A stretch of DNA of 64,000 nt from Salipiger mangrovisoli (GTDB lineage Bacteria; Pseudomonadota; Alphaproteobacteria; Rhodobacterales; Rhodobacteraceae). The stretch is from assembly GCF_015223355.1 (NCBI RefSeq), contig NZ_JADFFK010000026.1:1-64000 (forward strand). The letters are read 5' to 3'. Positions 17,675 to 34,911 of this stretch are shown here, piece after piece. Under the pieces are notes generated by a model, which had not been told where the DNA came from, made no database searches, and was given only the letters and a program-made list of their open reading frames with translations. The translations under genes and the position numbers were made by a program. Within the stretch, counting starts at the first letter, position 1, and every line of letters begins with the position of its first letter.

Positions 17675-19483
17675 GTGTCTGAAGTGAAAGGCAAGGACCG
17701 CAGCGGCGAGCAGCGACTGTCGACAGAGACAGCCGTCGAGCAACCTCTCGCGCCGCGGCACAACCAGACCCAGAACCTCCGTACCGACTTCGCACAGATC
17801 GCCACAGCGGCCAATGCGGCGGCTATTGGGATGGGCCTCGCGGCACAGGCCGAGGCTGGCTCCCAGCATGACACCCAGGGCGACGCCGAAAACACGTCGT
17901 TGCAGGAGCCCGACAACGGCTCCGCGAGAAACCTCTTCGAGGCAGCGCAAGGGCAAGTCAGCCCTGAAACGGCATCAGACACGCTGGGCGACGCGCCAGA
18001 TGCAGGCGACTCCGCAAGCGTGTTCACGACCGCTCAGCCAGAGGCTGATCGGACGAGCGGCACCGCCAGCGCCGCGGCGATTCCTTCGGACGTTTTCGCA
18101 ACGCAGCCCGCGCCCTCTTCGACGCCCGCGGCAGGAGACCGTCCTGCCGAAGGAACTGCGACGGCGGATTCCGGCCCCGCGGCAACCGCCCCCGTCGCAC
18201 CACCCCTCGTGCAGGCCACTGCGCCGGTCGCGCAGCAGACCTCCGAAAGCTCCCCCTCCGTCGCTGGTTCTGCGGAGGTCGACTCGCAGCTCGCCACAGC
18301 AGGGTCCGACGACGGTGCAACGGGCACCGACAGGGACGCGGACCCGGCTCACGACACGCTCCCCGGCGACAGCGGCATCGTCACCGGCGCCCTCGACACC
18401 GTCACCGGGGAGGACGGCCTCCTCGACAGCGCCCTCGACCTCGTCACGGGCGACGAGGGCCTTCTCGACACGCTCACAGGCGACAGCGGCATCGTCACCG
18501 GTGCCGTCGACACCGTCGCCGGGGAGGACGGCCTCCTCGACAGCACCCTCGACCTCGTCACCGGCGACGAGGGCCTTCTCGACACGCTCACCGGCGACAG
18601 CGGCATCGTCACCGGTGCCCTCGACACCGTCACCGGGGAGGACGGGCTGCTCGACAGCACCCTCGACCTCGTCACGGGCGACGAGGGTCTCATCGACACG
18701 CTCACCGGCGACAGCGGCATCGTCACCGGCGCCCTCGACACCATCGCCGGGGAGGACGGCCTCCTCGACAGCACCCTCGACCTCGTCACGGGCGACGAGG
18801 GTCTCCTCGACACGCTCACCGGCGACAGCGGCATCGTCACCGGTGCCCTCGACACCATCGCCGGGGAAGACGGGCTGCTCGACAGCACCCTCGAGCTCGT
18901 CGCGGGCGACGAGGGTCTTCTGGGCGGGATGCTGGGACTCTCCGGCGCGACGGAAGATCAGACATCGGAGGACGACTTTCTCGACTCGCTGCTCCTCTCC
19001 GAAGCGGACGATCAGCAGATGGACAGCGTGCTCGACGGGCTCCTCGGCGAGGATGATCCCTTCGCGCTCTCGCCCGATGACGCGGAGGGCAGCACCCTTG
19101 ACGACGGCACCAGCGCGCTGCTTGCCGGACTTGGCATCGAAGACGGTCTCAGCGGCACCCTCGTCGACGAGGGCGTCGTCGACGCCGCGGCTATGGATGT
19201 CGAGGACAGCGCCGAGGTCGATGCCCTTCTGACCGAAATTCTTGGAAGCTCGGTCGATGGTGATCTCTTTTCCAGCTCCCAGGGAGCCTTTGACTCCCTG
19301 CTCAACTTTGGCGACAGCGAAGGCGATACGATGGAGCCGGTGGCGGAGGGCGACGACAGCCTTCTCGGTGACACCGCGATCGACGGCACCCTTGCCGGGC
19401 TGTTCGAGAGCAGCAGCGGAGACGGCCTGCTTTCCGGCCTTCTGAGTGGCGACAGCGACGGGCTGGACAGCGAGAACAGCTGA
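17675..19483 (+). CDS. Acidic Asp/Gly repeat protein, candidate secreted surface protein
   Basis: I do not recognise a named family. The 602-residue product starts at GTG (AGGAG eight bases upstream). Residues about 35-60 form a hydrophobic Ala/Gly stretch (IATAANAAAIGMGLAAQAEA), and about 85-225 is an Ala/Pro/Thr-rich linker. Residues 231-420 are five 38-residue repeats built from GDSGIVTGALDT, GEDGLLDSTLDL and GDEGLLDTLT. The C-terminal third continues with irregular acidic GLL/DGL units. There is no Sec signal, Cys or RTX GGxGxD repeat. Its strong acidity, the related repeats in the protein at 31175 and the type I secretion genes just downstream suggest export as an adhesin or matrix protein. 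That function is inference. Confidence 0.75.
   Translation: MSEVKGKDRSGEQRLSTETAVEQPLAPRHNQTQNLRTDFAQIATAANAAAIGMGLAAQAEAGSQHDTQGDAENTSLQEPDNGSARNLFEAAQGQVSPETASDTLGDAPDAGDSASVFTTAQPEADRTSGTASAAAIPSDVFATQPAPSSTPAAGDRPAEGTATADSGPAATAPVAPPLVQATAPVAQQTSESSPSVAGSAEVDSQLATAGSDDGATGTDRDADPAHDTLPGDSGIVTGALDTVTGEDGLLDSALDLVTGDEGLLDTLTGDSGIVTGAVDTVAGEDGLLDSTLDLVTGDEGLLDTLTGDSGIVTGALDTVTGEDGLLDSTLDLVTGDEGLIDTLTGDSGIVTGALDTIAGEDGLLDSTLDLVTGDEGLLDTLTGDSGIVTGALDTIAGEDGLLDSTLELVAGDEGLLGGMLGLSGATEDQTSEDDFLDSLLLSEADDQQMDSVLDGLLGEDDPFALSPDDAEGSTLDDGTSALLAGLGIEDGLSGTLVDEGVVDAAAMDVEDSAEVDALLTEILGSSVDGDLFSSSQGAFDSLLNFGDSEGDTMEPVAEGDDSLLGDTAIDGTLAGLFESSSGDGLLSGLLSGDSDGLDSENS
18365..18934 (+). repeat. Five tandem 114-bp coding repeats
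   Basis: Five in-frame copies of a 114-bp unit (starts 18365, 18479, 18593, 18707, 18821) encode 38 residues each. Copies are nearly identical at DNA level, with a few substitutions (Ala/Ser-Thr, Val/Ile, Leu/Ile), so the array is young or kept uniform by recombination and could vary in copy number between strains. Confidence 0.9.
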
Positions 19484-19818
19484 TCTAATCCCATTGGCCG
19501 CCCGCGGTTCAATAGTGCACGGCGCGCCAAATTTAAGCCAAACTTGTATGCCAAAATTCCAGGAACTGCCGAGGCATTCCGAAATCTGAATTACTTACAT
19601 TCGGCTTCCGGGAGTGCAAAAAGGCGTTGCACCCAGCGGTTGATTGCGGCAGAAATAAAGATGCATAGCAAGTACATGTTTCCGCATTGAGCAGTGCTTC
19701 ACGACCCTGTCTCAATCAGAATGCGTGGAAACTCGTGCTGATACCGTTTCAAGGTGTCAACCAAATGAGGAGATTGTGGGGATAGACGCTGCCGTCCATT
19801 CGGTGAGGAGTGTGTGGT
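19484..19818. promoter_or_regulatory. AT-rich region before the secretion operon
   Basis: This 335-bp stretch has no supported gene. Most of it is AT-rich compared with the window and presumably holds the promoter of the secretion operon starting at 19819. I found no exact ACATAC site here. Confidence 0.4.
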
Positions 19819-20643
19819 ATGGCAATAGAAGTGTTGGCGCGCGCCCTGTCTGGAAATTCTGGGGCGTCGCGGGTTGTGACTTCGCATCTAACCTTGCGGG
19901 AATCCATGGAAATCAGCCTCACGGAAACAAGTGGTGGCATTTCCGGATATCTGAAGTCCGGACCTGACCTGGAGATATCTTTTCAGGACGGTCAAGCGTT
20001 GAATATAGAGAATTTCTTTGTCTCAGGACCCGATGGGGAGTTCAGTTCTCTCGTTGATGACGACGGCACGACGCTGGTATCTGGCCTTCTCGCCCCTGAA
20101 CCGGATGCCGAGTCATTGGGATTGGCTGGTGCCGTAAACGATATTCCTGACGCGACCAGTGCAGAATCAACGGGAATATCCGAGCTGGATCTTGCGAGTG
20201 GCTCCGCGCTTTCCTTTGCCGAATCCATGGCCGGTGAGCCCGAAATAGACCCCGGCCCGACATGGCCTCTCGGGCTGGGAATCGCGTCGGGACTCGGCGG
20301 CCTCTCGCTGCTCTCCGACGCCTCCGGATCGGACAGCGGCTCCGCCTCCGACCAGCCCAACGAAACCTCGAGCGCGTCGGTCACAAGCGCAACGATCGGC
20401 GACGACGAGATCGCCGACCTGCTCGGGCCATCTTCCGGTGACGCGGCGCTCGACGATGAACTCGCGGAATTGCTGCAACCCGCCGCCACAGCTTCTGAAG
20501 GCGACACCGATACGGCACTGCCGGACGCAACCGAGGGTCTTGTCCCCGTGGACGACATTCATCTCGACATGGGAGCCGACCTCGTGGCCGTCGCCAGCGT
20601 ACCGGAGCTCCTGCAAAACGATCCCATTGAAAGCGAGCTATGA
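19819..20643 (+). CDS. BapA-prefix-like short acidic protein coupled to TolC
   Basis: This 274-residue protein starts at the ATG eight bases after GAGGAG. Residues about 35-65 (GYLKSGPDLEISFQDGQA, then LNIENFFV) resemble the prefix domain at the N-terminus of BapA/LapA-type giant adhesins. A Gly-rich hydrophobic stretch (WPLGLGIASGLGGLSLL, about 145-165) follows, then an acidic Ser/Asp/Ala tail. The same prefix plus Gly-rich helix order occurs in the repeat protein at 31175, so this looks like an adhesin reduced to its secretion-associated start. Its stop overlaps the TolC start by four bases (ATGA), so it is made together with the exporter. A secreted substrate or an accessory retention factor are both possible. 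Confidence 0.7.
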   Translation: MAIEVLARALSGNSGASRVVTSHLTLRESMEISLTETSGGISGYLKSGPDLEISFQDGQALNIENFFVSGPDGEFSSLVDDDGTTLVSGLLAPEPDAESLGLAGAVNDIPDATSAESTGISELDLASGSALSFAESMAGEPEIDPGPTWPLGLGIASGLGGLSLLSDASGSDSGSASDQPNETSSASVTSATIGDDEIADLLGPSSGDAALDDELAELLQPAATASEGDTDTALPDATEGLVPVDDIHLDMGADLVAVASVPELLQNDPIESEL

Positions 20644-21914
20644 AACTTTACCGACCTTCCGGCCTTCGCGGGCTCCTGAGCCGTTTCGGCGCTGGCGCAG
20701 TGCTGGTCCTATGCCTCGCGCCCGGCCCGCTTGCGGCGCAGATGACCCTGACGCAGGCGCTGGGGCTCGCCACAGAGCTCGACCCGACGGTGACCGCGAA
20801 GCGCCAGGTGGTGGCCAGCCGAACAATAGGCATACAGGAAGCGCGCGACGCCTATTATCCCAGCGTCAATGTCTCTGCCGACAGCAACACCACTGATGCC
20901 AACGGCCCCGGGATCACCCTGACGATATCCCAGGTGCTCTATGACTGGGGGCTCATCCGCAGCCAGATCAAATCCGCGACCCAGGCCAGGGTACGCTCGA
21001 TCTCCGACCTCAAGATGGCGGTCGAGGCGCTGACGCTCGATGTCGCCGAGGCCTTCCTTGATGTCGAGATCGCCGATCGCAAGATCGCGCTGACCAACGA
21101 ATACGCCGACTATGCCGGGCGTCTCGCGCGGCAGGCCGAAGATCGCGCCCGCGCCGGGCTGGGGGACAACGGCGAGGTCGCGCGGGCCCGGCTCGAAATC
21201 GCCCGCGCCGAAGATCGGCTCGCCACGCTGCGCTCGGACCGCGCGCTCAGCCTGTCGCAAATCGGCTTTTTGACCGGGCGCAACCCAAGCGGCGTTGCCG
21301 CGCCGCCGTCGCTCGGCTACGCCCGCCGCTACGGCAGCATGGAGCAGATCCGGCAAGCCGTGCGTATCGCCCCAGATTACGTTGCAAGCCAGGCCAGCGC
21401 CGCCGAGGCCGAGGCCGAGGTCCAGCGCACCAAGGCCGCCCGGCTGCCGACGATCAGCCTGCAGGCCGAGGGTCGCACCGATCTCAACGGCGGGCGCACC
21501 CGCACCGCGCTCGGCATTGCCGCCGGTGTCGACCTCAACGCCTCGACGGTCGGCGGACGCAGCCTGCAGATCTCGCAGCGCGACTTCGCCGCGGCGAAAT
21601 TCAATCTTCAGGGGGTCGAGCGCCAGCTCACCAATGTGGCGCAGACCTCGCTTCAACAGCTGAACGCCCTGCGCGCGACCGAAGCCGCCCGCGCCGGGCA
21701 ACTCGAGGAATCGCGCCGCGTGCTCGACACTTACGAGGAACAGTTCACCGCCGGTCAGCGCGATCTGATCGACGTGCTGACCACCGGGCGCGATCTCTAC
21801 GATGCACAGATCGAGCAGGTAGAGACCTACGAAGACCGCAAACGAACCGAATACGAGGCGGCGCATGACCTGGGTGTCCTGGGCACGCTTATCCTCGAAG
21901 CCAGCCGGACCTAA
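20640..21914 (+). CDS. TolC-family outer-membrane channel of a type I secretion system
   Basis: This is a 424-residue TolC/LapE-type protein. It has a signal peptide (about residues 1-34, ending PLAAQ), then the start of the first repeat, LTLTQAL-like MTLTQALGLATELDPTV, and long Ala/Arg/Glu-rich helices repeated in the second half. YDWGLIRSQI in the first half and GQRDLIDVLTTGRDLYDAQ near the end match the family. It is the outer-membrane exit duct for the ABC exporter and fusion protein encoded directly after it. Confidence 0.9.
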   Translation: MKLYRPSGLRGLLSRFGAGAVLVLCLAPGPLAAQMTLTQALGLATELDPTVTAKRQVVASRTIGIQEARDAYYPSVNVSADSNTTDANGPGITLTISQVLYDWGLIRSQIKSATQARVRSISDLKMAVEALTLDVAEAFLDVEIADRKIALTNEYADYAGRLARQAEDRARAGLGDNGEVARARLEIARAEDRLATLRSDRALSLSQIGFLTGRNPSGVAAPPSLGYARRYGSMEQIRQAVRIAPDYVASQASAAEAEAEVQRTKAARLPTISLQAEGRTDLNGGRTRTALGIAAGVDLNASTVGGRSLQISQRDFAAAKFNLQGVERQLTNVAQTSLQQLNALRATEAARAGQLEESRRVLDTYEEQFTAGQRDLIDVLTTGRDLYDAQIEQVETYEDRKRTEYEAAHDLGVLGTLILEASRT

Positions 21915-21950
21915 CGACGTGACCTGATTGACGAGTTCTGGAGAAGCCGC

Positions 21951-24083
21951 ATGTCCGATCGACCGCAGACCGACCCGCTTGTCTCAGGGCTCATCGAGCT
22001 GTGCCGTAGCCAGGGGGTCTCGACCTCGGCAGTGCGGCTCACCGATGGGCTGCCCCTGCCCGAGGATGGCACCATGTCGCTCGACACCGCGGCGGCGGCG
22101 CTGCGGCGCGTCAACATGAGCTGCCGGGTCAGCCGAGAGCCACTCTCCTCCTTCCCGGCGCACAGCCTTCCGGTCCTGCTGTTCCTGCGCTGCGGGCGCA
22201 CCGTGGTGCTCGAGAAGCTGAGCAAGGTCAGCGCGACCGTGGTGCTGCCAGAGGCCGACGGCGGCCGCGCGGTCTGGGGCTGGCGCGAGCTCGAGGCGCT
22301 GCATGACGGGCGAGTGCTGGTGTCGAAGCCGATCGACGTCACCTCGGACCGGCTCGACGAAAAGGCCCCCGACCGCCGCCACTGGATCCTCGGCCCGGTC
22401 CTGCGCAACTGGTGGGTCTATCGCGATGTCGTAATCGCCTCTTTCGCCGCCAACCTTCTGGCCATCGCCACCGCGCTCTTCTCGATGCAGGTCTACGACC
22501 GGGTCGTGCCGAGCAATGCCTTCGACACGCTGTGGATCCTCGCCTCGGGCGTCGGGCTCGCGATCGTGCTCGAGCTGGTGCTGCGCATCACCCGCGCCGC
22601 GCTGGTCGATGTCTCGGGCCGCGACCTCGACCTGCGGCTCTCGGCGCAGCTCTTCGACAAGGTCGCCAACATGCGGCTGGCGCATCAGCCCGCCTCGACC
22701 GGGGTGTTTGCCAATCAGGTCCGAGACTTCGCCACGGTCCGAGAATTCTTCACCTCGGGCACGGTCACCGCGCTCTGCGACATCCCCTTCGTGCTGATCT
22801 TCGTGGCGGTGATCTGGTTCATCGGCGGGCCGATCGCCCTCGTCACCCTCGCCGGCGTCGCGATGACCGTTGTGCCGGGACTGCTGATGCAATCCCGCCT
22901 CGCCCGCGCTTCGCGCGAGAACACCCGCGAGGCCGCGGCGCTGAACGGGCTGCTGCTCGAGACCATCTCGAACCTCGAGACGGTGAAGGCCGCCCGTGCC
23001 GAGACCCGGCTGCAGCGCGCCCATGCGCAGCTCTCCGCGACCATGGCCAACACCTCGGTCAACACCCGCCGCCTGACGACGCTGATGACCCAGATGGTCG
23101 GCGGCGTGCAGAAATTTGCCTACGCCGGGGTGATCATCACCGGCGTCTACCTGATCAGCGCCGGCGAGCTGACCGTCGGCAGCCTCATCGCCTGCACCAT
23201 GCTGTCGAGCCGCACGCTGACGCCGATGAGCCAGGTTGCGGGGCTGCTGGCGCGCTGGCAGCAGGTCCGCGCCGCGCTCGAAGGGCTTGACCGCATCATG
23301 GCGCTGCCGGTCGAACGCCCTGCCGACCGCCACTTCGTCCGCGCCAGCGACATCCAGGGCGGCTACCGGATCGAGGATGTCGCCTTCCGTCACGACCCGG
23401 CAGCGCCGCCGGTCCTGCACATCCCCGAGCTCCGCATCGACGCGGGCGAGCGCATTGCGCTGCTCGGGGGCAATGGCGCCGGCAAATCCACCTTCCTGCG
23501 GCTGATGGCGGGCTACATCGACGCCCAGCAGGGCAGCATCCTGCTCGACGATCTGGCACTTGGGCAGATCGACCCGCTCGATCGGCGCCGACAGATCGGC
23601 TACCTGCCGCAGTCGGTGGCGCTGTTCCAGGGCACGCTGCGTGACAACCTTCTGCTCGACCACGGTCTGCACAGCGATGACGAGCTTCTTGCCGCGCTGG
23701 ATGCCGTGGGGCTCGGCAGCTTCGTGCGGCGCCATGTGCGCGGGCTCGACCTGCAGCTGAGCGGCAACGGAAACGTCTCTGGCGGGCAGCGCCAGTCGAT
23801 CGGCCTTGCCCGCGTGTTGCTGCAGGATCCGCGCGTGGTACTGCTCGACGAACCAACCGCGGCGCTCGACCACATCACCGAGGCGCGGGTGATCGCACAC
23901 CTCAAGACCTGGCTCGAGGGGCGCACGGTGATCATCTCGACCCACAAGCGCGAGCTACTGGCGCTGACCCAGCGCACGCTCGTACTGAAGGACGGCAAGG
24001 TGGCGCGCGATGGTGACCTGGCGCAGATCCTCAACGCCGCCCGCGCCCGCACCGTGCAGAATGCCAAGGTGAAGGCGGTCTGA
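21951..24083 (+). CDS. Type I secretion ABC transporter (LapB-like)
   Basis: This 710-residue exporter has three parts: an N-terminal C39-peptidase-like domain (about 1-140), a transmembrane domain (about 155-450) and an ATPase domain with Walker A GGNGAGKST, signature SGGQRQ and Walker B VVLLDEPT. The N-terminal domain has no catalytic Cys-His arrangement that I can see, as in LapB/HlyB-type exporters where it only docks the substrate. It would drive export of RTX-like or BapA-like proteins without removing a leader. The stop overlaps the next start by one base. Confidence 0.92.
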   Translation: MSDRPQTDPLVSGLIELCRSQGVSTSAVRLTDGLPLPEDGTMSLDTAAAALRRVNMSCRVSREPLSSFPAHSLPVLLFLRCGRTVVLEKLSKVSATVVLPEADGGRAVWGWRELEALHDGRVLVSKPIDVTSDRLDEKAPDRRHWILGPVLRNWWVYRDVVIASFAANLLAIATALFSMQVYDRVVPSNAFDTLWILASGVGLAIVLELVLRITRAALVDVSGRDLDLRLSAQLFDKVANMRLAHQPASTGVFANQVRDFATVREFFTSGTVTALCDIPFVLIFVAVIWFIGGPIALVTLAGVAMTVVPGLLMQSRLARASRENTREAAALNGLLLETISNLETVKAARAETRLQRAHAQLSATMANTSVNTRRLTTLMTQMVGGVQKFAYAGVIITGVYLISAGELTVGSLIACTMLSSRTLTPMSQVAGLLARWQQVRAALEGLDRIMALPVERPADRHFVRASDIQGGYRIEDVAFRHDPAAPPVLHIPELRIDAGERIALLGGNGAGKSTFLRLMAGYIDAQQGSILLDDLALGQIDPLDRRRQIGYLPQSVALFQGTLRDNLLLDHGLHSDDELLAALDAVGLGSFVRRHVRGLDLQLSGNGNVSGGQRQSIGLARVLLQDPRVVLLDEPTAALDHITEARVIAHLKTWLEGRTVIISTHKRELLALTQRTLVLKDGKVARDGDLAQILNAARARTVQNAKVKAV

Positions 24084-25255
24084 TGAATTCTCCCGAGTAT
24101 TTTGACCCAAGCCATGTCGATGGCAGCTTCCGCCGCCAGACCCTCGCAAAGTCGCGGCTCACCATACAGGTCGTCGTGCTCAGCGTGCTCGCGGCGATAG
24201 GCTGGTCGGCCGTGGCCCAGGTCAACGAGGTCACCCGCGGCGACGGCCGCGTGATCCCGGCGCGGCGCATGCAGACCATCCAGAGCCTCGAGGGGGGCAT
24301 CCTCTCCGAGCTGGCGGTGCGCGAAGGCGACATCGTCAAGCAGGGTCAGGTGCTGGCCCGGCTCGACCCCACGCGTTCGCAATCGGCGTTCATGGCCACG
24401 CAATCGCAGATCACCGCACTCACCGCCGAGGTGGCCCGGCTCGAAGCCGAGGTGCTGGAACATCCCGAACTGGACTTCGGAGACACCCCGAACGAGGCCG
24501 AGCGCACCGAGTTGCGCCTGTTCACCGCGCGCCGCACCAAGCTCGAGGCGTCGCTCACCGCGCTCGAAAGCGAGCGCAACGCCATAGAGGAGCAGATCGC
24601 CATCACCGCCCCGCTCGCCGAGCGCGGCTCGGTCAGCCGCATCGACCTGCTGCAGCTGCAGCAGAAGAAGGCCGAACTCGACGGCCGCATCGGCGAGGCG
24701 CGCAATGCGTATGTCCAGGACGCCTACAAGGATCTGGCGCAGCGCCGCGCCAAGCTCGCGACGCTGCAGGAAGAGGTGGTGCAGAAACGCGACGAGCTGC
24801 AGCGGACCGATGTGCGCTCGCCGGTCGAGGGCAGGGTCAACAACATCGCCATCACCACGCTCGGCGGCGTGGTGCAGCCCGGCGAGCCGATCATGGAGAT
24901 CACCCCGATCGATGATCAGCTGGTGATCGAGACAAAGGTACTGCCCCGCGACGTCGCCTTCGTGGCGCCCGGCATGGCAGCAAGCGTGAAGATCACCGCC
25001 TACGACTTTTCCACCTACGGGGATCTGCGTGGCACGGTGATGCAAATCTCAGAGGACACGGTGGAAGAAGAGACCAAACAGGGGCCGCAGGACTTCTACC
25101 GGGTTATGGTCGGCACCGAACAGAACTACCTCGAGCGCTACGGCGAGAAATTTTTCATCCGCCCCGGCATGGTGGCACAGGTTGATATCGAGAGCGGCGA
25201 CCGTTCGGTGCTCAGCTATCTGACCCGCCCGCTGCTGAACGCCCGGCTGCGCTGA
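24083..25255 (+). CDS. Type I secretion membrane fusion protein (HlyD/LapC family)
   Basis: This is a 390-residue HlyD-type adaptor. It has a single N-terminal membrane segment (about 30-50), a lipoyl-like half (GDGRVIPARRMQTIQSLEGG, LAVREGDIVKQGQVLARL), long coiled-coil helices (about 115-235) and the C-terminal barrel (VRSPVEGRVNNIAI, PGMVAQVDIESGDRSVLSYL). It bridges the ABC transporter in the inner membrane to TolC. The one-base overlap with the ABC gene and the 13-base gap to the next gene indicate a single operon. Confidence 0.92.
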   Translation: MNSPEYFDPSHVDGSFRRQTLAKSRLTIQVVVLSVLAAIGWSAVAQVNEVTRGDGRVIPARRMQTIQSLEGGILSELAVREGDIVKQGQVLARLDPTRSQSAFMATQSQITALTAEVARLEAEVLEHPELDFGDTPNEAERTELRLFTARRTKLEASLTALESERNAIEEQIAITAPLAERGSVSRIDLLQLQQKKAELDGRIGEARNAYVQDAYKDLAQRRAKLATLQEEVVQKRDELQRTDVRSPVEGRVNNIAITTLGGVVQPGEPIMEITPIDDQLVIETKVLPRDVAFVAPGMAASVKITAYDFSTYGDLRGTVMQISEDTVEEETKQGPQDFYRVMVGTEQNYLERYGEKFFIRPGMVAQVDIESGDRSVLSYLTRPLLNARLR

Positions 25256-25268
25256 CAGAAGGCAATCA

Positions 25269-26642: not shown

Positions 26643-26657
26643 GGCCGTTCGGCAGCG

Positions 26658-27899: not shown

Positions 27900-27974
27900 G
27901 TATTTCACCTCGCATCATCGCCCGGACAAAGCCAAGGCTCGCGCGTAGGTTAGGAGACTCCTTAACCGAAGAAT

Positions 27975-27985
27975 ACATACTTTGG
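27975..27985. promoter_or_regulatory. ACATAC regulatory half-site before the glycosyltransferase
   Basis: ACATACTTTGG, identical to the site at 17510, lies 76 bases upstream of the leftward glycosyltransferase start. Confidence 0.5.
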
Positions 27986-28030
27986 AGAGTCGCGCGTGGG
28001 TTGCGGCAGTTCCGCCACGCTCCACCGGGC

Positions 28031-28672
28031 TCAGATGATGTTCATATCGCGTGCGACGATCACCGCCTGCGTGCGGTTGCTGGCCTCCAGCTTCGAGCAG
28101 ATGGATTTCACATGCATCTTGACCGTCGCCTCCTTCAGCCCCAGCGCTGCCCCGATGTCGCGGTTGGACTTGCCCTCGGCCAGTTCGGCCAGCACGTCGT
28201 TCTCGCGCTCGGACAGCTGCGCCGCCGTTCGCGGCTCGCGCGGGGCAACGCGCTGCCTCTCGATCAACTCGACCGGGATGTAGCGCCCGCCCGCCGCCAT
28301 GAAGCGGATCTCGTTGGCAAAGGCCTTGAGCGAGGTGGTCTTGAGCACGAAGCCCGCCCCCCCCAGCGCCAGGACCTCGGGCACCAGGTGCGCCGGCGGA
28401 TTGCTGGTCAGCAGCGCCACGGGCTTGCCGCCATTGCGGCTGATCGCGCGGCCCAGCCCCTCGAGCCCGTTCATGCCCGGCATGTTGAGATCAAGCAGTA
28501 CCAGATCGTAGGGCCCGTCGCGGTCGATCGCCGACAACGCCGTATCGAGATCCGGCGCCGTCGACGCGCTCACGTCGTCGAGGTTCTCGATGAACTGCGC
28601 AAACATCTCGAGGACCATGGCGTGGTCGTCGGCGATGAGGATGCGAACCGGATCCGCACTCTTGCTGGTCAT
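28031..28672 (-). CDS. NarL/FixJ-type response regulator
   Basis: This 213-residue response regulator has a receiver domain (ILIADDHAMVLEMF, phosphoacceptor Asp in LVLLDLNMPGMNG, Lys in GFVLKTTSL) and a C-terminal LuxR-type helix-turn-helix (LSERENDVLAELAEGKSNRD, KEATVKMHVKSICSKLEASN). It is encoded just downstream of a hybrid histidine kinase on the same strand, so it is the likely output of that kinase and the best local candidate for binding the ACATAC/GTATGT sites. That link is inference. Confidence 0.92.
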   Translation of the reverse strand: MTSKSADPVRILIADDHAMVLEMFAQFIENLDDVSASTAPDLDTALSAIDRDGPYDLVLLDLNMPGMNGLEGLGRAISRNGGKPVALLTSNPPAHLVPEVLALGGAGFVLKTTSLKAFANEIRFMAAGGRYIPVELIERQRVAPREPRTAAQLSERENDVLAELAEGKSNRDIGAALGLKEATVKMHVKSICSKLEASNRTQAVIVARDMNII

Positions 28673-28787
28673 GTCTCTCTATCCTTCGGGCACGGACTCT
28701 GCGGAGGGCGCGGACCGCACCGCAAGTCCATATCAGGCCTCAATATGGCAAGGAACGCGGCGCTCCGCCAGCACCACTCCTCGGGCC

Positions 28788-30746
28788 TCAGAACGGCGGG
28801 TCGCGCAGCGCCGCGGCGGTGCGCTCAAGCGCTTCGGCCAAGGCGGACATCTCGGCCTCGGCGGCACCCTGCCCCGCCTTCACCGCATCTTCGAGCACAC
28901 GCAGCCGCCGCTCCGCCAGGGCAAGCCCCGTCAGGCCGCAGGCGCCGGTGGCGGCATGCAGGGCACATCCCGATGCGGCATTGAGCCCTCCGCGCAGCAG
29001 CGCCATTGCCTGCTCGGCCTCGGCGAGCGCCCGCGCCATGAAGGCCAGTGCCCGGTCGCGGCCCAGCTCGCGCGCGAGTTCCGAGACCACCTCCAGCGAA
29101 ATCACCGGTTCCCGCGTTTCCGCCGCGCCGTCCGCCGGGTCCGCCAATGGCGCATCGAGGGGATCGGAAGCTCCGCCGCGCAGGGCCGCCAGCGCCGCGC
29201 AGAGCTGCCCGGGTCGGATCGGCTTTTCCAGCACCTCGACCATACCCGCCTTCAGGCAAGCCGCGCGGATCCGGGTATCCACATGTGCGGTGAGCCCGAC
29301 GATCCGCAGCGCCGCCGGGAAGAGGCCCTGTCTCACGCCCGCCCTGATGCGCCGCGCCAGCTCGACGCCGTGGAACTCGGGCAGCGTGACATCCGAGAGC
29401 ACGATATCGGCCGGGCCGCCTTCGGCCAAGCGAAGCAACTCCAGCGCCTCTGCGCCGCGCCCTGCCTCCTGCACCTCTGCACCGGCATTGCGCAGAACCT
29501 GGCAGAGCCAGCTTCGACTTGCGGGACTGTCCTCTATCACCAGGATCCGCGCCCCGACCAGCGCCCGCTCCGCGTCGGCTTCGGGTTCCGGCTCGGGGAT
29601 GTCGATCGCTGTCGGCAACCTGAAACGCGCCCGCAATATCGTGCCGATGACTTCCGCGCCGTCTTTGGCCGTATCGGCCCTGTCCTCGATTTCCAGCGTG
29701 CCGCCCAGTTGCATCAATGCATGCGCGAGCACCTCTAGGCCGCCGGAACGCCTTTGAGCCGGGCGTGCATCTGCCGGCGTGGCCGGGACCAGCGCTGACA
29801 TATTCCCAGCCGCCACGTGGCCAAGCGCCTCCTGCAGCCGCGCGCGCTGCGCGGGCGGCAGGCCGCCACCGAGGTCGCGCACCTCGAACCTGATCTCCAA
29901 CAATGGCTCCCCGTCCGGGCCAAGCTTCGGCAGAGGCGTCAGCCACAGCTCTGCCTCGATCTTGGCGCCGCCGTGTTTCACCGCGTTGTCGAGCATGTTC
30001 TGGAACAGGGCCCGCACGAAGCGCACCGGTCCGTGGACCTGCTCCGGCCCGGCGGACCCGGCGTGTAGCCTGAGTTCAGCGCCGCGCTGCGCGGCCAGCG
30101 GCTGCAGCATCGCCACCAGCGCTTCCACCTCGGCCGCCGGAGAGAAGGCGGCGTCGGGCTGCAGCCCGCTGCCGCGCTGCTCGCCGCGCAGCACCGAGAG
30201 CACGTTGCTGACATGCGCCAACGACAGATCCGCCGCGCGGCGCAGGCCGGCCAGCGCCCCGGAACCGGCGGTCGCTCCGGTGACCAGCGCCTCCGCCGAG
30301 GCCAGCAGCGACTGGATCGGCGTCCGCAGGTCATGCGCCACGCGCAGCAGCGTCGCCGCCCGCGCCCGGTTCCGCAGCCATGTCGCCTCGTCCTCGCTGT
30401 CCGACAGCCGCAGGAACAGGCCCGTCGCGGGGCCGACCGGCAGCGCGACAAGTTCGCCCTCCAGCTCCTGCCCCATCAGCGTCACCGCAACCCGGGCGCT
30501 GCCGGCACGCCGCGCACGCGCGCTGATCTCGGGCCAGTCAAGCACCGAACGAAGCCGCGCCGCGTCAAGTCCGAGCGCCTTGGCCGGGGCATTGGCCAAC
30601 AGGATCTGCCCCGCCTCGCTGGCCAGCAATGCCGCGCGGCGGTCGGTGGCGATGAGCCGGGCGATCACCTGCACCACCGGCCGATAGACCGAGACATCCT
30701 CTTCCGCGCCGCTTTCCGGCGACGGCACACGGCGTTCTCCTGTCAT
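28788..30746 (-). CDS. Hybrid histidine kinase with receiver and Hpt domains
   Basis: This is a 652-residue kinase with no clear membrane segment. A PAS-like N-terminus (about 20-130) is followed by a HisKA segment with the His in RVAHDLRTPIQSLL and a HATPase domain (N box MLDNAVKHGG, G box VRDLGGGLP). A receiver domain follows (ILVIEDSPASRSWL, Asp in IVLSDVTLPEFHG, Lys in VLEKPI), then a C-terminal Hpt-like helix with LHAATGACGLTGL. The start at 30746 is fixed by AGGAGG seven bases upstream; the open frame extends further but without a site. Phosphate would pass His-Asp-His to the NarL-type regulator next to it. Confidence 0.9.
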   Translation of the reverse strand: MTGERRVPSPESGAEEDVSVYRPVVQVIARLIATDRRAALLASEAGQILLANAPAKALGLDAARLRSVLDWPEISARARRAGSARVAVTLMGQELEGELVALPVGPATGLFLRLSDSEDEATWLRNRARAATLLRVAHDLRTPIQSLLASAEALVTGATAGSGALAGLRRAADLSLAHVSNVLSVLRGEQRGSGLQPDAAFSPAAEVEALVAMLQPLAAQRGAELRLHAGSAGPEQVHGPVRFVRALFQNMLDNAVKHGGAKIEAELWLTPLPKLGPDGEPLLEIRFEVRDLGGGLPPAQRARLQEALGHVAAGNMSALVPATPADARPAQRRSGGLEVLAHALMQLGGTLEIEDRADTAKDGAEVIGTILRARFRLPTAIDIPEPEPEADAERALVGARILVIEDSPASRSWLCQVLRNAGAEVQEAGRGAEALELLRLAEGGPADIVLSDVTLPEFHGVELARRIRAGVRQGLFPAALRIVGLTAHVDTRIRAACLKAGMVEVLEKPIRPGQLCAALAALRGGASDPLDAPLADPADGAAETREPVISLEVVSELARELGRDRALAFMARALAEAEQAMALLRGGLNAASGCALHAATGACGLTGLALAERRLRVLEDAVKAGQGAAEAEMSALAEALERTAAALRDPPF

Positions 30747-30860
30747 CGCGTTCCCTCCTGCGGCCTGGCGAGCAAGTCGTGCCCAGGGTGTGATTATAGA
30801 CACTTGTGATGCGATTGCGCCCCGTCCGCTACAAAAGTCTCGGGTCCGAGCAACTGAATC

Positions 30861-30876
30861 ACATACTATCGTATGT
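30861..30876. promoter_or_regulatory. Perfect ACATAC-N4-GTATGT palindrome before the kinase
   Basis: ACATAC-TATC-GTATGT lies 115 bases upstream of the hybrid kinase start, in the 428-bp region shared with the second repeat protein. It is the cleanest copy of the motif found across the locus. Confidence 0.6.
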
Positions 30877-31066
30877 ATCACCCGGGACTTCATGATTCCA
30901 GCGACCACTCATGACCAGAACGCGGCGCGCCGAAAGAGGCATTTTTCCATCAATTCGCCGTAATTTACGTTACTTTTGTTTCCAATTTCCCGCCCAATGT
31001 CGCCCTGGAAGCGCAATAGGCCCTGGAAACGCGGTGAAAATTCTCCAACCCAACCAAACGACAATA

Positions 31067-31107
31067 GTATGTTGACTGACGATACTTTCGTATGTTTTGA
31101 TACATAC
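31067..31107. promoter_or_regulatory. Cluster of GTATGT/ACATAC sites before the second repeat protein
   Basis: Three half-sites occur here: GTATGT at 31067, then the perfect pair GTATGT (31090-31095) and ACATAC (31102-31107) with a 6-base spacer. The cluster ends 67 bases before the ATG at 31175. ATACTTTCGTAT (31082-31093) also resembles the core of the 30861 palindrome. Confidence 0.6.
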
Positions 31108-31174
31108 CAAATAGTGTACTTCTATTTTCACGACCCCGCACCGAATGCGCGGGTGATATTGCAAGGGTTGAAAG

Positions 31175-33421
31175 ATGGCTGAAACGGTTATTCAGGCAGG
31201 TCAGGAAATCGGCATCCGCATCGATGCTGTCTCCGCGGACATTGCGCGCTACACGCGGCAAGGAAAGACGCTGATCGTCGAGTTGAAGAACGGCGACCGG
31301 GTGATCATCAATGATTATTACACGCCGGCAGAAAACAATTCGCTGCACAGCCTGATCCTTGGCGATTCTGAAGAGGCGGCGGTCGAGGGCGAAGGGGCTG
31401 CCGGCCTCGGAATGAGCATGGAAGAACAGGCCGCGCTCGCCGCAGCGGGCATCGGCGCTCTTGGCATCGCCCTGGCGAGTGGCGGGGGCGGAGGCTCCAA
31501 GAAGGACCCAACCGACGGCACTGATCCGACCGACGGGACAGACGGCACCGACCCGACCGACGGAACGGACGGCACCGACCCGACCGATGGAACCGACGGC
31601 ACCGATCCGACCGACGGAACCGACGGCACCGACCCGACCGATGGAACAGACGGAACCGACCCGACTGACGGAACCGACGGCACCGACCCGACTGATGGAA
31701 CCGACGGCACCGATCCGACCGACGGAACCGACGGCACCGACCCGACCGATGGAACCGACGGCACCGATCCGACCGACGGAACAGACGGCACCGACCCGAC
31801 CGACGGAACAGACGGCACCGATCCGACCGATGGAACCGACGCCACCGATCCGACTGATGGAACTGACGGCACCGATCCGACCGATGGCACCGACGGTACC
31901 GACCCGACCGATGGAACGGATGGCACTGACCCGACCGATGGAACCGACGGCACTGACCCGACCGATGGAACCGACGGCACTGACCCGACCGACGGGACAG
32001 ACGGCACCGACCCGACCGACGGAACGGACGGCACCGACCCGACCGACGGGACAGACGGCACCGACCCGACCGATGGAACCGACGGCACCGACCCGACCGA
32101 CGGAACGGACGGCACTGACCCGACCGACGGGACAGACGGAACCGATCCCACGGATGGCACCGATGGAGTGGGCACGCAGGGCTTCCTCGACCCGCTGGTC
32201 GCCGACGAGGGCCTGCTTGGAGATGTCACTGGAAATGACGGGGTGCTCGGCGAGGTGACGGGGTCTGAGGGCCTGCTCGGCGAACTGCTCGGACCTCAAT
32301 CCGAGCTCAGTGAGCCCTTCGAAACCCTGATCGGCCAGCCCCTGCTCGGCGACGGCACCATCAGCTCGGAAACCGGGATTGCCGACGGACTTGTTTCCGA
32401 CGACGGCCTTCTGGGAGACGCCACCGGGAATAGCGGCGCCCTCGGCGAGGTCACAGGCTCGCAGGGCCTGCTGGGCGAGCTGGCCGGCAACGATGGCGCG
32501 CTTGCCGAGATTACCGGCAGCGACGGGCTTGTCGGCGAGCTGACCGGAACCGGATTGCTCGGCGACACGGATGGCACATCCGACGGGACACCGGGCACCG
32601 GTGAGCTGCTTGACGGCGTACTTGGCGAAGACGGATTGCTCTCTGGCGTCCTCGACAGCGGCGAGGGTCTGCTCGACCCGGTGATCGCCGATGACGGCCT
32701 GCTCGGCGAGCTCACCGGCAACACCGGCGCGCTTGGCGAGGTCACGGGGTCCGACGGTCTGCTCGGTGAGCTGGTCGGCGACGACGGCGCGCTCGGCGAG
32801 ATCACCGGCGAAGACGGGTTTGTCGGCGAGCTGACCGGCACGGGACTGCTCGGTGACGGAGATGCCGCCGATGGTGACGAGGACCTGCTTGGCGGACTGC
32901 TCGATGGTGGCACCGAAGATGTTCTCGGAGGACTGCTCGACAGCGGCGAGGGAGTGCTCGACCCGGTGATCGCCGATGACGGCCTGCTTGGCGACCTCAC
33001 CGGCAATTCAGGCGCACTTGGAGAGGTCACTGGTTCCGACGGTCTGCTCGGTGAATTGGTCGGCAACGATGGCGCGCTCGGCGAGATCACCGGCGATGAC
33101 GGGCTTGTCGGCGAGCTGACCGGCACGGGACTGCTCGGTGACGGCGACGGAAGCGGTGGCGGCGGCGTGGACGAGCTCCTCGGCGAACTCATCGATGGCG
33201 GCTCCACCGAAAGCCTTCTCGGCGGCGAGACCCCGCTGGACGGTATCCTCGGCGAGAACGGCTTGCTGGGTGACAGCGGACTTCTGGGCGACGAAGGCCT
33301 GCTCGGTAGCGGCGAGTCCCTGCTCGGAGGGCTGACGGATGGCCTGAGCGACGATGGATCCCTGCTCGGCGGAGACCTGCTCGGCGGCCTCTCCGGCCCC
33401 GGCGAAGAAGATTTCAGCTGA
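31175..33421 (+). CDS. BapA-prefix acidic repeat adhesin candidate
   Basis: This 748-residue protein has four parts. Residues about 10-60 form a BapA/LapA prefix-like domain (RQGKTLIVELKNGDRVIIND). Residues about 80-110 are a Gly/Ala-rich hydrophobic stretch ending in a poly-Gly run, like the retention or linker segment of biofilm adhesins. Then come 24 nonapeptides DPTDGTDGT (residues 117-332). The C-terminal half has three copies of a roughly 60-residue block made of GLLGDLTG, GALGEVTG, GLLGELVG, GALGEITG and GLVGELTG units. It has no Sec signal, Cys or RTX repeat and is extremely acidic. Export by the adjacent type I system is inferred. Asp-rich repeats could bind Ca2+. Confidence 0.8.
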   Translation: MAETVIQAGQEIGIRIDAVSADIARYTRQGKTLIVELKNGDRVIINDYYTPAENNSLHSLILGDSEEAAVEGEGAAGLGMSMEEQAALAAAGIGALGIALASGGGGGSKKDPTDGTDPTDGTDGTDPTDGTDGTDPTDGTDGTDPTDGTDGTDPTDGTDGTDPTDGTDGTDPTDGTDGTDPTDGTDGTDPTDGTDGTDPTDGTDGTDPTDGTDGTDPTDGTDATDPTDGTDGTDPTDGTDGTDPTDGTDGTDPTDGTDGTDPTDGTDGTDPTDGTDGTDPTDGTDGTDPTDGTDGTDPTDGTDGTDPTDGTDGTDPTDGTDGTDPTDGTDGVGTQGFLDPLVADEGLLGDVTGNDGVLGEVTGSEGLLGELLGPQSELSEPFETLIGQPLLGDGTISSETGIADGLVSDDGLLGDATGNSGALGEVTGSQGLLGELAGNDGALAEITGSDGLVGELTGTGLLGDTDGTSDGTPGTGELLDGVLGEDGLLSGVLDSGEGLLDPVIADDGLLGELTGNTGALGEVTGSDGLLGELVGDDGALGEITGEDGFVGELTGTGLLGDGDAADGDEDLLGGLLDGGTEDVLGGLLDSGEGVLDPVIADDGLLGDLTGNSGALGEVTGSDGLLGELVGNDGALGEITGDDGLVGELTGTGLLGDGDGSGGGGVDELLGELIDGGSTESLLGGETPLDGILGENGLLGDSGLLGDEGLLGSGESLLGGLTDGLSDDGSLLGGDLLGGLSGPGEEDFS
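31523..32170 (+). repeat. 24 tandem 27-bp repeats (DPTDGTDGT)
   Basis: 648 bases encode exactly 24 nonapeptide units after an initial DPTDGT. One unit has GT changed to AT, and the last ends DGV. Synonymous changes (gac/gat, acc/act, ggaacc/gggaca) vary between copies, so the protein sequence is more constant than the DNA, which points to selection on the peptide. Confidence 0.92.
32399..33147 (+). repeat. Three copies of a ~180-bp acidic block
   Basis: Three related blocks begin near 32399, 32675 and 32960. Each codes for the order DDGLLG-x-xTG, GALGEVTG, GLLGEL, GALxEITG, GLVGELTGTGLLGD. The last two both open with DPVIADDGLLG, 285 bases apart. Block edges are approximate. Confidence 0.7.
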
Positions 33422-33489
33422 CCCCACTCACGGAACAACAGCTGAAACCGGCCTGCCCCGCTCCCCCACCCCCTTCGGCGGGGCAGGCC
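33412..33489 (+). terminator. Double hairpin ending the repeat-protein gene
   Basis: A 9-bp inverted repeat (TTTCAGCTG / CAGCTGAAA, 33412-33447) spans the stop codon. Right after it is a perfect 12-bp stem, GGCCTGCCCCGC with GCGGGGCAGGCC (33450-33489). The second is a strong terminator-type hairpin without a T tract. Confidence 0.7.
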
Positions 33490-33537
33490 CCCCAAATTCC
33501 CAGTGATCCCCCAGTTTCCAACCGAGAGGCCTGCCCC

Positions 33538-33831
33538 ATGGACCCGCGCCCGAAGCCCTCCCGGCCATCATGGACCCTGACCTATGCCGCTCGCGACCGC
33601 TGCCGAACGACCTGGGCGCAATTGCCCGCCGGGCAGCGCGGCGCAGCGAACCGCTGCGCTGCCCCTGCAGCAGGTGACGAAGCCGCGGGAGATGCCGATT
33701 TCCGCTCCCACGCAATGGACCCGACCCACAAGGACAGCACCCCCCGCGTATTCTGCTCCGGCTGGTGGATCGCTCCGGCAGCCTGCCTTGGCACCTTGGG
33801 CTGGGTCGCGCTGCTTGCAGCGGTACTGTAA
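33538..33831 (+). CDS. Small putative membrane protein
   Basis: This is a short frame of 97 codons preceded by GAGAGG. Only the last part looks protein-like: STPRVFCSGWW followed by a hydrophobic helix, IAPAACLGTLGWVALLAAVL, running to the stop. An internal ATG at 33715 would give a 38-residue single-span protein. The first half is Arg/Ala-rich and may be untranslated. It lies between a terminator and the receiver-GGDEF gene. No family is recognised. Confidence 0.35.
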   Translation: MDPRPKPSRPSWTLTYAARDRCRTTWAQLPAGQRGAANRCAAPAAGDEAAGDADFRSHAMDPTHKDSTPRVFCSGWWIAPAACLGTLGWVALLAAVL

Positions 33832-33906
33832 TCCGGCCCGCCCGGTCGTGCTGCCGCGAGCCCTGAAGACACCGCCCTGTCTCCACTGACCGAAGAGGAC
33901 CATTTC

Positions 33907-34911
33907 ATGCGACTGCTCGCCGTCGATGACAGCCCAGTGATGCGAGATCTGATTCCGCTGCTCGTTGACACCGACATGGTGGTTAGGAGCGCGGCCTCGG
34001 GATCAGCGGCCCTGAGCATGTTGCAGGGCTCGGAACAGCCCTTTGACTGCCTGCTGCTCGACATCGAAATGCCGGGCATGGACGGGATCGAGCTGTGCCG
34101 ACAGGTGCGCAGCCTCCCCCGCTACACGCTGACCCCGGTCATCATGCTCACGGCCCGCACCGACGGGGGCAGCATCGAGGCCGCATTCGCCGCCGGCGCC
34201 AATGACTACATCGTCAAGACGCTGAATACGCGGGCGCTCAGGGGACGCCTGCGTGTCGCCGAACGGCTGCGCGACGCGCCCGGGATGTTCCGGTGCGACC
34301 GCCGCCGGCTGAGCACTTTCGGCAGGCCCCGCGGGGCGCATCCCTTCTCCGCATCACAGAGTGTCACCATCCTCGGCACCGGTCAGATGATCGACCCGTT
34401 CTCGCTTGGAAATTATCTCGCGCAGCTGCCGCGCCGCGACATCGAACGCAGCCGCATCTTCGGGGCCCGGCTCGACGACTTCGAGGAGATTTATCGCAGC
34501 ACAACGACGCCCGAATTCGGAAGCCTTCTTGTGGAGGTGGCGGAGGGGCTGCAGACCTTTGTGAAATCATCATCGGCACTGACCTGCTACGACGGCAACG
34601 GCAGGTTCATATGCCTTGCTCGCAGCGCCGATTTGCCCGCGCCCGACCAGATGGAGGCCGAATTGGCCGCGCACCTTCAAGCGACCTGGCAGCAGGATGC
34701 GCCCGCTGCGGTGCCGCCATCGAGCGTCACGCTCGGCACCCCGGTCACACCCTTCGCGAACAAGACCCAAAGAGTGCGCAAGTCCCTGCTGCGCGCCCAG
34801 GCCCGGCTCGAGGCGCGTTCAGCCCGAAAAGGGCTCTGCAACGTCGGGGTCCGGCATCCGTTGGAGACGATCTCGATGCGTGCCGCGGGCCTCGATGTGC
34901 CCCGGACCTGA
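33907..34911 (+). CDS. Receiver protein with degenerate GGDEF domain
   Basis: This is a 334-residue protein. Residues 1-125 are a receiver domain (LLAVDDSPVMRDLI, Asp in CLLLDIEMPGMDG, MLTARTD, Lys in DYIVKTLN). Residues about 150-270 follow the GGDEF fold pattern (GARLDDFEEIY, LLVEVAEGLQTF), but the signature position reads YDGNGRF instead of RGGDEF, so diguanylate cyclase activity is very unlikely. The last 60 residues are basic and may be a tail. Next to a BapA-like locus, it may sense phosphorylation, GTP or c-di-GMP as an inactive regulator. The degenerate-domain reading is mine and should be tested by structure prediction. Confidence 0.75.
   Translation: MRLLAVDDSPVMRDLIPLLVDTDMVVRSAASGSAALSMLQGSEQPFDCLLLDIEMPGMDGIELCRQVRSLPRYTLTPVIMLTARTDGGSIEAAFAAGANDYIVKTLNTRALRGRLRVAERLRDAPGMFRCDRRRLSTFGRPRGAHPFSASQSVTILGTGQMIDPFSLGNYLAQLPRRDIERSRIFGARLDDFEEIYRSTTTPEFGSLLVEVAEGLQTFVKSSSALTCYDGNGRFICLARSADLPAPDQMEAELAAHLQATWQQDAPAAVPPSSVTLGTPVTPFANKTQRVRKSLLRAQARLEARSARKGLCNVGVRHPLETISMRAAGLDVPRT

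Follow-up and report, generated by a model that had tools for sequence, protein, structure and literature searches.

A probable BapA-type surface-adhesin locus of Rhodobacterales, sometimes plasmid-borne, with its own exporter, Omp85 protein, regulators and glycosyltransferase

The best-known adhesins exported by type I secretion systems (T1SS) are giant RTX or immunoglobulin (Ig)-repeat proteins. What kind of system, then, is encoded by a locus of Salipiger mangrovisoli in which T1SS genes lie among genes for two acidic repeat proteins, an Omp85 protein, a glycosyltransferase and two-component regulators? The locus occupies positions 17675 to 34911 of the stretch analysed here (the window: bases 1-64000 of contig NZ_JADFFK010000026.1, our G000:C18, which has 81,648 bases). 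A first-pass annotation of the window had described a coherent unit of twelve neighbouring genes. Eleven were found, as were also counted between the two ends of the locus on the annotated plasmid of Alloyangia pacifica, and the unit itself stood, as its gene order is conserved. The locus is probably of the BapA type, a surface-adhesin locus of Rhodobacterales that is self-contained and in some cases carried by a plasmid, with two-component control, type I export and stalk O-glycosylation. This reading is based on the conserved gene order, the co-occurrence of the exporter with the Omp85 protein, the BapA-prefix domain (BapA_N) of the larger acidic protein and the precedent of Paracoccus denitrificans BapA. 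It is also based on invariant residues in the kinase and the regulator, the distribution of a short promoter element, and the match between the glycosyltransferase and threonine-containing stalks.

The plus strand carries, in this order, the genes for two acidic proteins, Ac1 and BapN, a TolC-family outer-membrane channel (20640..21914; PF02321), an ATP-binding cassette (ABC) permease/ATPase of the LssB type (21951..24083; TIGR03375, 796 bits against a cut-off of 693), an HlyD-type periplasmic adaptor (24083..25255; TIGR01843, 322 bits against 209) and an Omp85 protein with a single POTRA domain, here called mOmp85 (25269..26642; PF01103, 84 bits against 24). They are followed on the minus strand by the genes for a glycosyltransferase, a NarL-type regulator and a hybrid kinase, and on the plus strand again by those for the acidic protein Ac2 and a receiver protein. 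The family matches confirmed the exporter genes, the BamA-like protein, the glycosyltransferase, the hybrid kinase and the NarL regulator proposed in the first-pass annotation. The BapN and TolC genes overlap by 4 bp and the ABC and HlyD genes by 1 bp, while 36 bp separate TolC from ABC and 13 bp separate HlyD from mOmp85. Because of these short spacings and overlaps, the arrangement from BapN to mOmp85 resembles a single operon. No peptidase C39 family was found among the Pfam matches of the ABC protein, and LapB presumably belongs to the same TIGR03375 (LssB) subfamily.

A search for the gene order in other Rhodobacterales had been set beforehand as the refuting test. Related loci were sought in genome contigs with a profile of eight Omp85 sequences, which gave 38 loci, and the order was found to be kept across many genera and not scattered. 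The TolC, ABC and HlyD genes lie directly upstream of mOmp85 in 26 of the 36 loci with at least 4.5 kb of upstream sequence, and behind an insert in 7 more (L113 was scored in this way without a detected HlyD gene); they were found in neither position in L110, L111 and L114. On the opposite strand, the 33 loci with at least 4.4 kb downstream include 27 with the NarL regulator, 26 with the hybrid kinase and 16 with the glycosyltransferase, and an acidic gene was found downstream in 23 of the 32 loci with at least 5.6 kb. Exporter, mOmp85, both regulators and acidic genes on both sides occur together in 20 of the 38 loci, 13 of which also have the glycosyltransferase; in these counts either Ac1 or BapN could be scored as the upstream acidic gene, and L085 almost duplicates L084. 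Among 394 genomes of 393 genera, mOmp85 was found in 7 (E<=1e-40); 6 of these 7, and no other genome, have the exporter clade (E<=1e-200), and the seventh, G315, is a 73%-complete assembly. By their titles the 38 loci belong to Rhodobacterales (Roseobacteraceae and Paracoccaceae), except L082 (JAFKDC010000027.1), titled Enemella evansiae (Actinomycetota). This record is probably mislabelled, and its counterpart, G021:C27, belongs to the family of the window.

An Omp85 match was found on nine plasmid records, and in A. pacifica the locus lies with unchanged gene order on a 793-kb plasmid. Since related loci are carried by plasmids, the contig of the window may be extrachromosomal. On the Sulfitobacter plasmids of L227, L228 and L229 the exporter core and the Omp85 gene are kept, the adjoining glycosyltransferase, regulators and Ac2 are absent, and toxin-antitoxin, insertion sequence or metabolic genes occupy their place. 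Near-identical second copies of the cassette or its core were present in single genomes (L084 and L085 in Celeribacter ethanolicus, L228 and L229 in Sulfitobacter sp. DSM 110093), which suggests recent duplication or transfer between replicons. In a Pseudogemmobacter/Thioclava branch, genes for a Tad-pilus secretin and a CpaD-like protein stand between HlyD and Omp85 (L104:7564-9438 by Pfam, genes of the same size in L105 and L112, and annotated genes in L231:6279-8718, where a TadG-like gene is nearby); these genes hint at a link between the exporter and Tad-pilus parts.

The predicted structure of mOmp85 (mean pLDDT 84) has one POTRA domain (strand-helix-helix-strand-strand, residues 55-117) and 16 barrel strands. 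The sequence FRGF, whose (F)RGF loop we take to be an Omp85 hallmark, and two cysteines, C73 and C92, both in the POTRA domain, are invariant in 37 sequences. POTRA, 16-strand barrel and FRGF place the protein in the Omp85 superfamily, and its single POTRA domain sets it apart from BamA proper, which has five. The best matches in the PDB were BamA structures, including the one-POTRA construct 4c4v (TM-score 0.67-0.69, 18-19% identity). Unlike that construct, mOmp85 has one POTRA domain natively and is tied to a T1SS operon. An Omp85 search among relatives returned true mOmp85 relatives beyond the window only in G009 and G021; the remaining matches look like ordinary BamA, mostly as open frames of 755-873 amino acids. 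We infer that mOmp85 is a dedicated outer-membrane partner of the exporter, a T1SS role that appears to be undescribed in the open PubMed Central literature.

The candidate substrates of the exporter are the acidic proteins, and the two very acidic repeat proteins expected from the first reading were found, with repeats far above chance. Ac1 (17675..19483, plus strand; 602 amino acids) has 21% D+E, 1.7% K+R and a net charge of -115. It has no explanatory family match, and a 114-bp tandem repeat of 5.0 copies (38-residue units) lies within its gene (18352..18921). Ac2 (31175..33421, plus strand; 748 amino acids) has 24% D+E, 1.1% K+R and a net charge of -170; both proteins lack Cys and Trp. Ac2 consists of a BapA-prefix domain (PF22783, residues 1-70), an Ala/Gly segment, an acidic (TDGTDP)n stalk encoded by a 27-bp tandem repeat of 24.2 copies (31510..32163, plus strand), and decapeptide GLLGxxTGxD repeats, of which 18 cores were counted against a mean of 0.03 and a maximum of 2 in shuffled sequences. 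The predicted structure of Ac2 shows a beta domain at residues 1-70 (block pLDDT 89-96), a disordered stalk and then repeat blocks, in which the decapeptides form short helices (about pLDDT 70-84). The BapA-prefix match is above the cut-off on Ac2 (38.2 bits against 27) and just below it on the small protein BapN (25.1 bits; 277 amino acids, 19810..20643, plus strand, with a possible start at the ATG at 19819), so that the BapA-prefix protein of the first-pass annotation was confirmed on Ac2 and not on the 277-residue protein. They are the only two BapA-prefix matches in the genome of the window; the Pfam scan found no BapA_N match in Ac1, nor any RTX family among the matches of the locus proteins.

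Ac1 has none of the decapeptide core of Ac2. Their repeat regions are alike (BLASTP E 5e-12), a match inflated by low complexity. A beta-roll for Ac1, read from a Pfam antifreeze match (32.5 bits, cut-off 30), was rejected because the sequence is of low complexity and the related repeats of Ac2 are modelled as short helices. Of 27 Ac1 sequences, 20 have an AIGMGL-type segment (AIGMGLAxQ) near the N-terminus, and a pattern common to the last 75 residues is [IV][ED]xALxxLF...LLxGL; of the seven without the segment, four are cut by contig ends (L082, L099, L106, L108) and three are not. Judged from sequence, these terminal segments are candidate anchoring and export signals. In L081 (Alloyangia mangrovi) Ac1 is split over two reading frames, with the change near residue 194 of the window's Ac1, which is either a broken gene or an assembly error.

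In the relatives of Ac2 both ends are kept and the stalk between them is exchanged: (TDGTDP)n, (PTD)n, (DA)n, (DP)n, (GGD)n or (GD)n. Among three Alloyangia sequences the stalk, measured from one conserved end to the other, has 226 residues in the window, 70 in A. mangrovi and 271 in A. pacifica. Stalks seem to be swapped quickly, since two strains of one named species, Pseudosulfitobacter pseudonitzschiae, differ in their second Ac2 stalk, with (PTD)n in L083 and (DA)n in L140. A BapA-prefix match was found in 122 of the 394 genomes of the family, and in 18 of 20 sampled loci of this generic kind the gene of the BapA-prefix protein, like that of Ac2, shares its stretch with ABC and HlyD genes. 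The two exceptions are L138, which shows just an ABC gene, cut by the end, and L137, another locus of the cassette genome G136, which has none. The other 19 loci come from genomes without an mOmp85 match. Unlike the cassette, the 18 loci have an ABC protein 39-44% identical to that of the window and a substrate of about 850-1385 residues. Given this wide linkage of BapA-prefix and exporter genes, the cassette is one specialised branch of a widespread type. In G136, G133, G177, G400 and G101 there are giant BapA-prefix open frames (about 3,400-3,700 residues, the usual length being 850-1,400).

The regulatory genes are a hybrid histidine kinase (28788..30908, minus strand; start probably at the ATG near 30746, giving 652 amino acids) and a NarL/LuxR-type response regulator (28031..28672, minus strand). 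The kinase has HATPase and receiver matches above the cut-off and a HisKA match below it (17.5 against 26.9 bits), and no sensor domain was found by Pfam. Its C-terminus gave no Pfam match to a histidine phosphotransfer (HPt) domain; from our own reading of the motif, we assume it to be HPt-like. All 28 kinase sequences compared have H192, D506 and H651, and all 29 regulator sequences have D61, so a four-step phosphorelay would be chemically possible.

The word ACATACT was present in 21 of 29 regions upstream of Ac2, with a maximum of 7 for any word in simple shuffles. Its core, the element GTATGT, was chosen after viewing the Ac2 upstream regions, and binomial values for it are descriptive only. 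It occurs eight times in the window: upstream of Ac1 (17510..17515, minus strand, within CAAAGTATGTA), upstream of the glycosyltransferase gene (27975..27980, minus strand, within CAAAGTATGTA), five times in the divergent hybrid-kinase/Ac2 promoter region (30861..31107; sites at 30861, 30871, 31067, 31090 and 31102) and once inside HlyD. Seven of the eight sites thus fall within 1,127 bp of promoter sequence, and the Ac1 and glycosyltransferase sites were outside the discovery set. The sites at 30861 and 30871 are inside the longest kinase open reading frame, upstream of its likely start. In 41 loci the element was found upstream of Ac2-type genes in 40 of 44 stretches, of the kinase in 24 of 35, of Ac1 in 16 of 26 and of the glycosyltransferase in 10 of 20. 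The bases upstream of the acidic genes, the glycosyltransferase and the kinase, 4.8% of the total, hold 105 of 209 sites (50%), and the next best of 60 control words of the same composition had 7 of 27 sites (26%) in promoters. The longer pattern CWWAGTATGT occurs twice in the 6.35-Mb genome, both times at the locus (the reversed-pattern control also gave 2), and AAAGTATGTA three times, twice at the locus (control 0); the third copy is on another contig, at G000:C24:22248, at the edge of open reading frames. The separate transcription units are thus linked by a common promoter element, which adds to the coherence that had been claimed for the locus. The NarL regulator may be the protein that binds the element. 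The presence of GTATGT in the promoters of Ac1, Ac2, the glycosyltransferase and the kinase appears to be undescribed in the open PubMed Central literature.

The glycosyltransferase (26658..27908, minus strand; PF12000 and PF00534) is GT4-like and a candidate O-glycosyltransferase of the stalk; the genome has a second PF12000 enzyme elsewhere. Its weak sequence matches in the PDB include SdgB chains (E about 8e-4) and lipid-linked sugar transferases. Thr-rich stalks (Thr 21-35%) were read downstream in 15 of 15 loci with the glycosyltransferase and in 1 of 10 without it. These 25 loci exclude L085 (duplicate of L084), L102 (stalk cut by the contig end) and loci without a readable downstream stalk. 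L046, L139, L226 and L230 are further glycosyltransferase loci with Thr-rich stalks, and in L089 an upstream (DA)n stalk is found beside two Thr-rich ones. On an Omp85 tree (without L085 and L107, and with L102 scored Thr-rich by eye) glycosyltransferase and stalk each changed 4 times; well-supported branches gave 3 independent pairs, of which an average of 2.7 changed in the same direction, 0.3 showed no difference and none were opposed. In the 394 genomes the glycosyltransferase was found in 5 (E<=1e-60), one of them outside the cassette, G276 (52% identity). The BapA protein of G276 has a 349-residue PTE stalk, and G276 is among only 3 of 98 BapA-prefix stretches with a Thr-rich stalk (within the 98, L224 repeats part of L135, and L137 and L198 are from cassette genomes). 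The presence of the glycosyltransferase thus appears to track Thr-containing stalks, a relation that appears to be undescribed in the open PubMed Central literature.

The last gene of the locus encodes a receiver-domain protein (33907..34911, plus strand) that can be considered accessory. The receiver half of the predicted receiver/pseudo-GGDEF protein was found and the GGDEF half was rejected, with no match at E<=0.1. A relative of this gene follows Ac2 in 3 of the 38 loci, 28 of which reach 9.5 kb downstream, and it was rejected as a core member. A response regulator occupies the same position on the plasmids of A. pacifica and P. pseudonitzschiae SMR1.

How these parts could work together is proposed as follows. 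A soluble hybrid kinase (His-Asp-His) would pass phosphate to the NarL-type regulator, which would act at the GTATGT elements before Ac1, the glycosyltransferase and the kinase/Ac2 pair. Where the glycosyltransferase is present, it would attach O-linked sugars to the threonines that recur at regular intervals in the stalk, ahead of export. The LssB-type TolC-ABC-HlyD exporter would secrete Ac1, Ac2 and probably BapN without a Sec signal, and the BapA-prefix end of Ac2 and BapN would tether these two to the cell surface. The decapeptide-repeat end, held off the cell by the long, disordered and polyanionic stalk, would serve as a calcium-responsive adhesin or matrix protein, and mOmp85 would insert or hold the exporter channel or the anchored end of the adhesin. 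The locus is of interest as a small, conserved version of a T1SS adhesin system that several species carry on plasmids. Its Omp85 gene goes with a single exporter clade, and a rare promoter element joins adhesins, glycosyltransferase and kinase. If mOmp85 is needed for export, it would define an Omp85-dependent branch of type I secretion, and if the stalk is glycosylated, the locus would be a new Gram-negative model for exported stalk glycoproteins. It also provides a surface-attachment module open to testing in roseobacters and paracocci.

Several observations weigh against this reading. The model of Ac2 is weak overall (pLDDT 58), a fold match for it was sought and rejected (none at E<=0.001), and its N-terminal region gave no sequence match to a solved structure. 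The GTATGT element is scarce upstream of BapN (3 of 21 stretches) and NarL (3 of 36) and absent upstream of TolC (0 of 37), HlyD (0 of 37) and Omp85 (0 of 41), so that control of the exporter operon would require read-through from Ac1. Upstream of ABC it was found in 10 of 40 stretches, overlapping the end of TolC, a distribution that we cannot explain; four of the ten, of the Pseudogemmobacter-type branch, have three sites each. The likeness to P. denitrificans BapA is drawn from the published description of that protein. Other observations concern the glycosyltransferase. Its association with Thr-rich stalks goes back to no more than 3-4 independent events in the tree, too few to reach significance (median p 0.25 in a sign test), and in G276 its gene and the BapA gene are on different contigs. 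L140, a glycosyltransferase locus, has a Thr-free (DA)n stalk besides a Thr-rich one (the latter read by eye, since it has more than five residue kinds and was missed by the script). Thr-rich stalks are found without the glycosyltransferase in L115, within the cassette set, and in L160 (G025) and L170 (G085) among the 98 BapA-prefix stretches, with no PF12000 match in G025 or G085. A general rule that Thr stalks require this enzyme is broken by these three loci and was rejected. It is accordingly a serious possibility, if one somewhat short of even, that the BapA-type T1SS core is read correctly and the glycosyltransferase serves an envelope or matrix polysaccharide, as its matches to lipid-linked sugar transferases would allow, with the link to Thr stalks left by shared ancestry. 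What speaks for the stalk as its substrate is that all glycosyltransferase loci examined with a readable downstream stalk have at least one Thr-rich stalk, that its promoter carries the rare element of the adhesin genes, and that the sole genome with this rare enzyme outside the cassette is one of the three with such a stalk.

The role given to mOmp85 can be questioned on similar grounds, since its sequence and fold are BamA-like and no cassette-type exporter lies within about 10 kb of it in L111 and L114. That it is a hitchhiking or general outer-membrane insertase carried on plasmids, with no part in export, nonetheless seems rather unlikely, given its strict co-occurrence with the exporter clade (bar one incomplete assembly) and its usual place just behind HlyD; G089, to which L114 belongs, has the exporter at a distance of about 17 kb on that contig. 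The acidic proteins could also stay in the cytoplasm or periplasm for ion buffering or osmoprotection while the exporter moves something else. This is improbable: although Ac1 has no BapA_N match, no RTX family was found and the export of the acidic proteins is a prediction, BapA_N is present on Ac2 and sub-threshold on BapN, BapA_N genes are repeatedly linked to exporter genes, the ends of Ac1 are common to its relatives, and P. denitrificans BapA is a precedent. Least credible of all is a LapA-type system, in which the adhesin is released by the protease LapG under control of cyclic di-GMP. The LssB-type exporter, the N-terminal domain of anchoring type and the nearby receiver protein would fit it. 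The LapG cleavage motif expected near residue 108, [TAP]AA[GV], was seen at residues 61-140 in 14 of 38 Ac2-type proteins, in sequence that is Ala-rich. LapG (PF06035) itself was found in none of 8 genomes, Caulobacter being the sole positive of 14 controls, and the receiver protein has no GGDEF match. The LapA/LapDG system was rejected on the LapG result in these 8 genomes, and LapG-type release is unlikely.

The BapA-type adhesin locus proposed here can now be set beside described systems. LapA is a protein of about 520 kDa with RTX motifs that is released by LapG (PMC3032545). The locus resembles it in having an LssB-type exporter and an adhesin with an N-terminal region of the kind that holds LapA at the cell. 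It differs in the size of its acidic proteins (602, 277 and 748 amino acids) and in that no RTX family (by Pfam) or LapG (in 8 genomes) was found, so the earlier statement that the proteins lack RTX repeats and are not LapA-like holds as far as tested. The PprA-PprB-controlled BapABCD of Pseudomonas aeruginosa likewise joins a two-component regulator to a T1SS adhesin operon; the regulon extends to type IVb pili and CupE fimbriae, and no Omp85 protein or glycosyltransferase is named in the part available (PMC6821963). The closest relative in kind is P. denitrificans BapA, which is built of Asp-Ala repeats and has 2,211 amino acids (212 kDa) and a predicted isoelectric point of 2.4. It is the predicted substrate of the adjoining T1SS genes bapBCD, biofilm formation needs both BapA and the exporter, and calcium stimulates attachment (PMC5588039). 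The Ac proteins are likewise extremely acidic, carry simple repeats and are encoded beside T1SS genes, and the Asp-Ala stalk recurs in the cassette relatives L088, L089, L090, L094, L097 and L116. As in other BapA-type T1SS adhesin loci, PF22783 is on a candidate substrate and a candidate substrate gene lies beside TolC-ABC-HlyD. Unlike the cassette, P. denitrificans BapA has a single long (DA)891 stalk and three named exporter genes, and the available text does not describe an Omp85 protein, a glycosyltransferase or a kinase pair (PMC5588039). The first-pass annotation knew of no described system with this gene set. A published relative in kind thus exists, and a described system with the Omp85 partner, dedicated regulators and glycosyltransferase was not found in the open PubMed Central literature.

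The staphylococcal Ser-Asp adhesins offer another comparison. They too combine a long acidic stalk of Asp and a hydroxy amino acid with GT-B glycosyltransferases, SdgA and SdgB (PMC8561734, PMC3794999), of which SdgB adds N-acetylglucosamine to Ser of DSD motifs (PMC8561734). In the cassette a PF12000/PF00534 glycosyltransferase is encoded with a predicted repeat adhesin, an arrangement seen in the 16 of 33 loci mentioned above. The SdgA/SdgB systems are Gram-positive, LPXTG-anchored and based on Ser, whereas the stalk of the locus consists of Thr-Asp-Gly/Pro in place of Ser-Asp dipeptides. We put forward tentatively, and with more doubt than confidence, that the cassette is a plasmid-portable Gram-negative counterpart of these glycoproteins. 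Its Thr-Asp stalk would be O-glycosylated in the cytoplasm by its own GT4-type enzyme, and its T1SS export would need its own one-POTRA Omp85 for placement in the outer membrane. All would form one regulon through a His-Asp-His-Asp phosphorelay and GTATGT. From species to species one stalk chemistry (Thr-Asp, Asp-Ala, Asp-Pro, Gly-Asp) would be exchanged for another, and the glycosyltransferase would come and go together with the threonines. Taken against all these systems, the locus is a real and conserved elaboration of a type of system already known, a new variant and not a new category.

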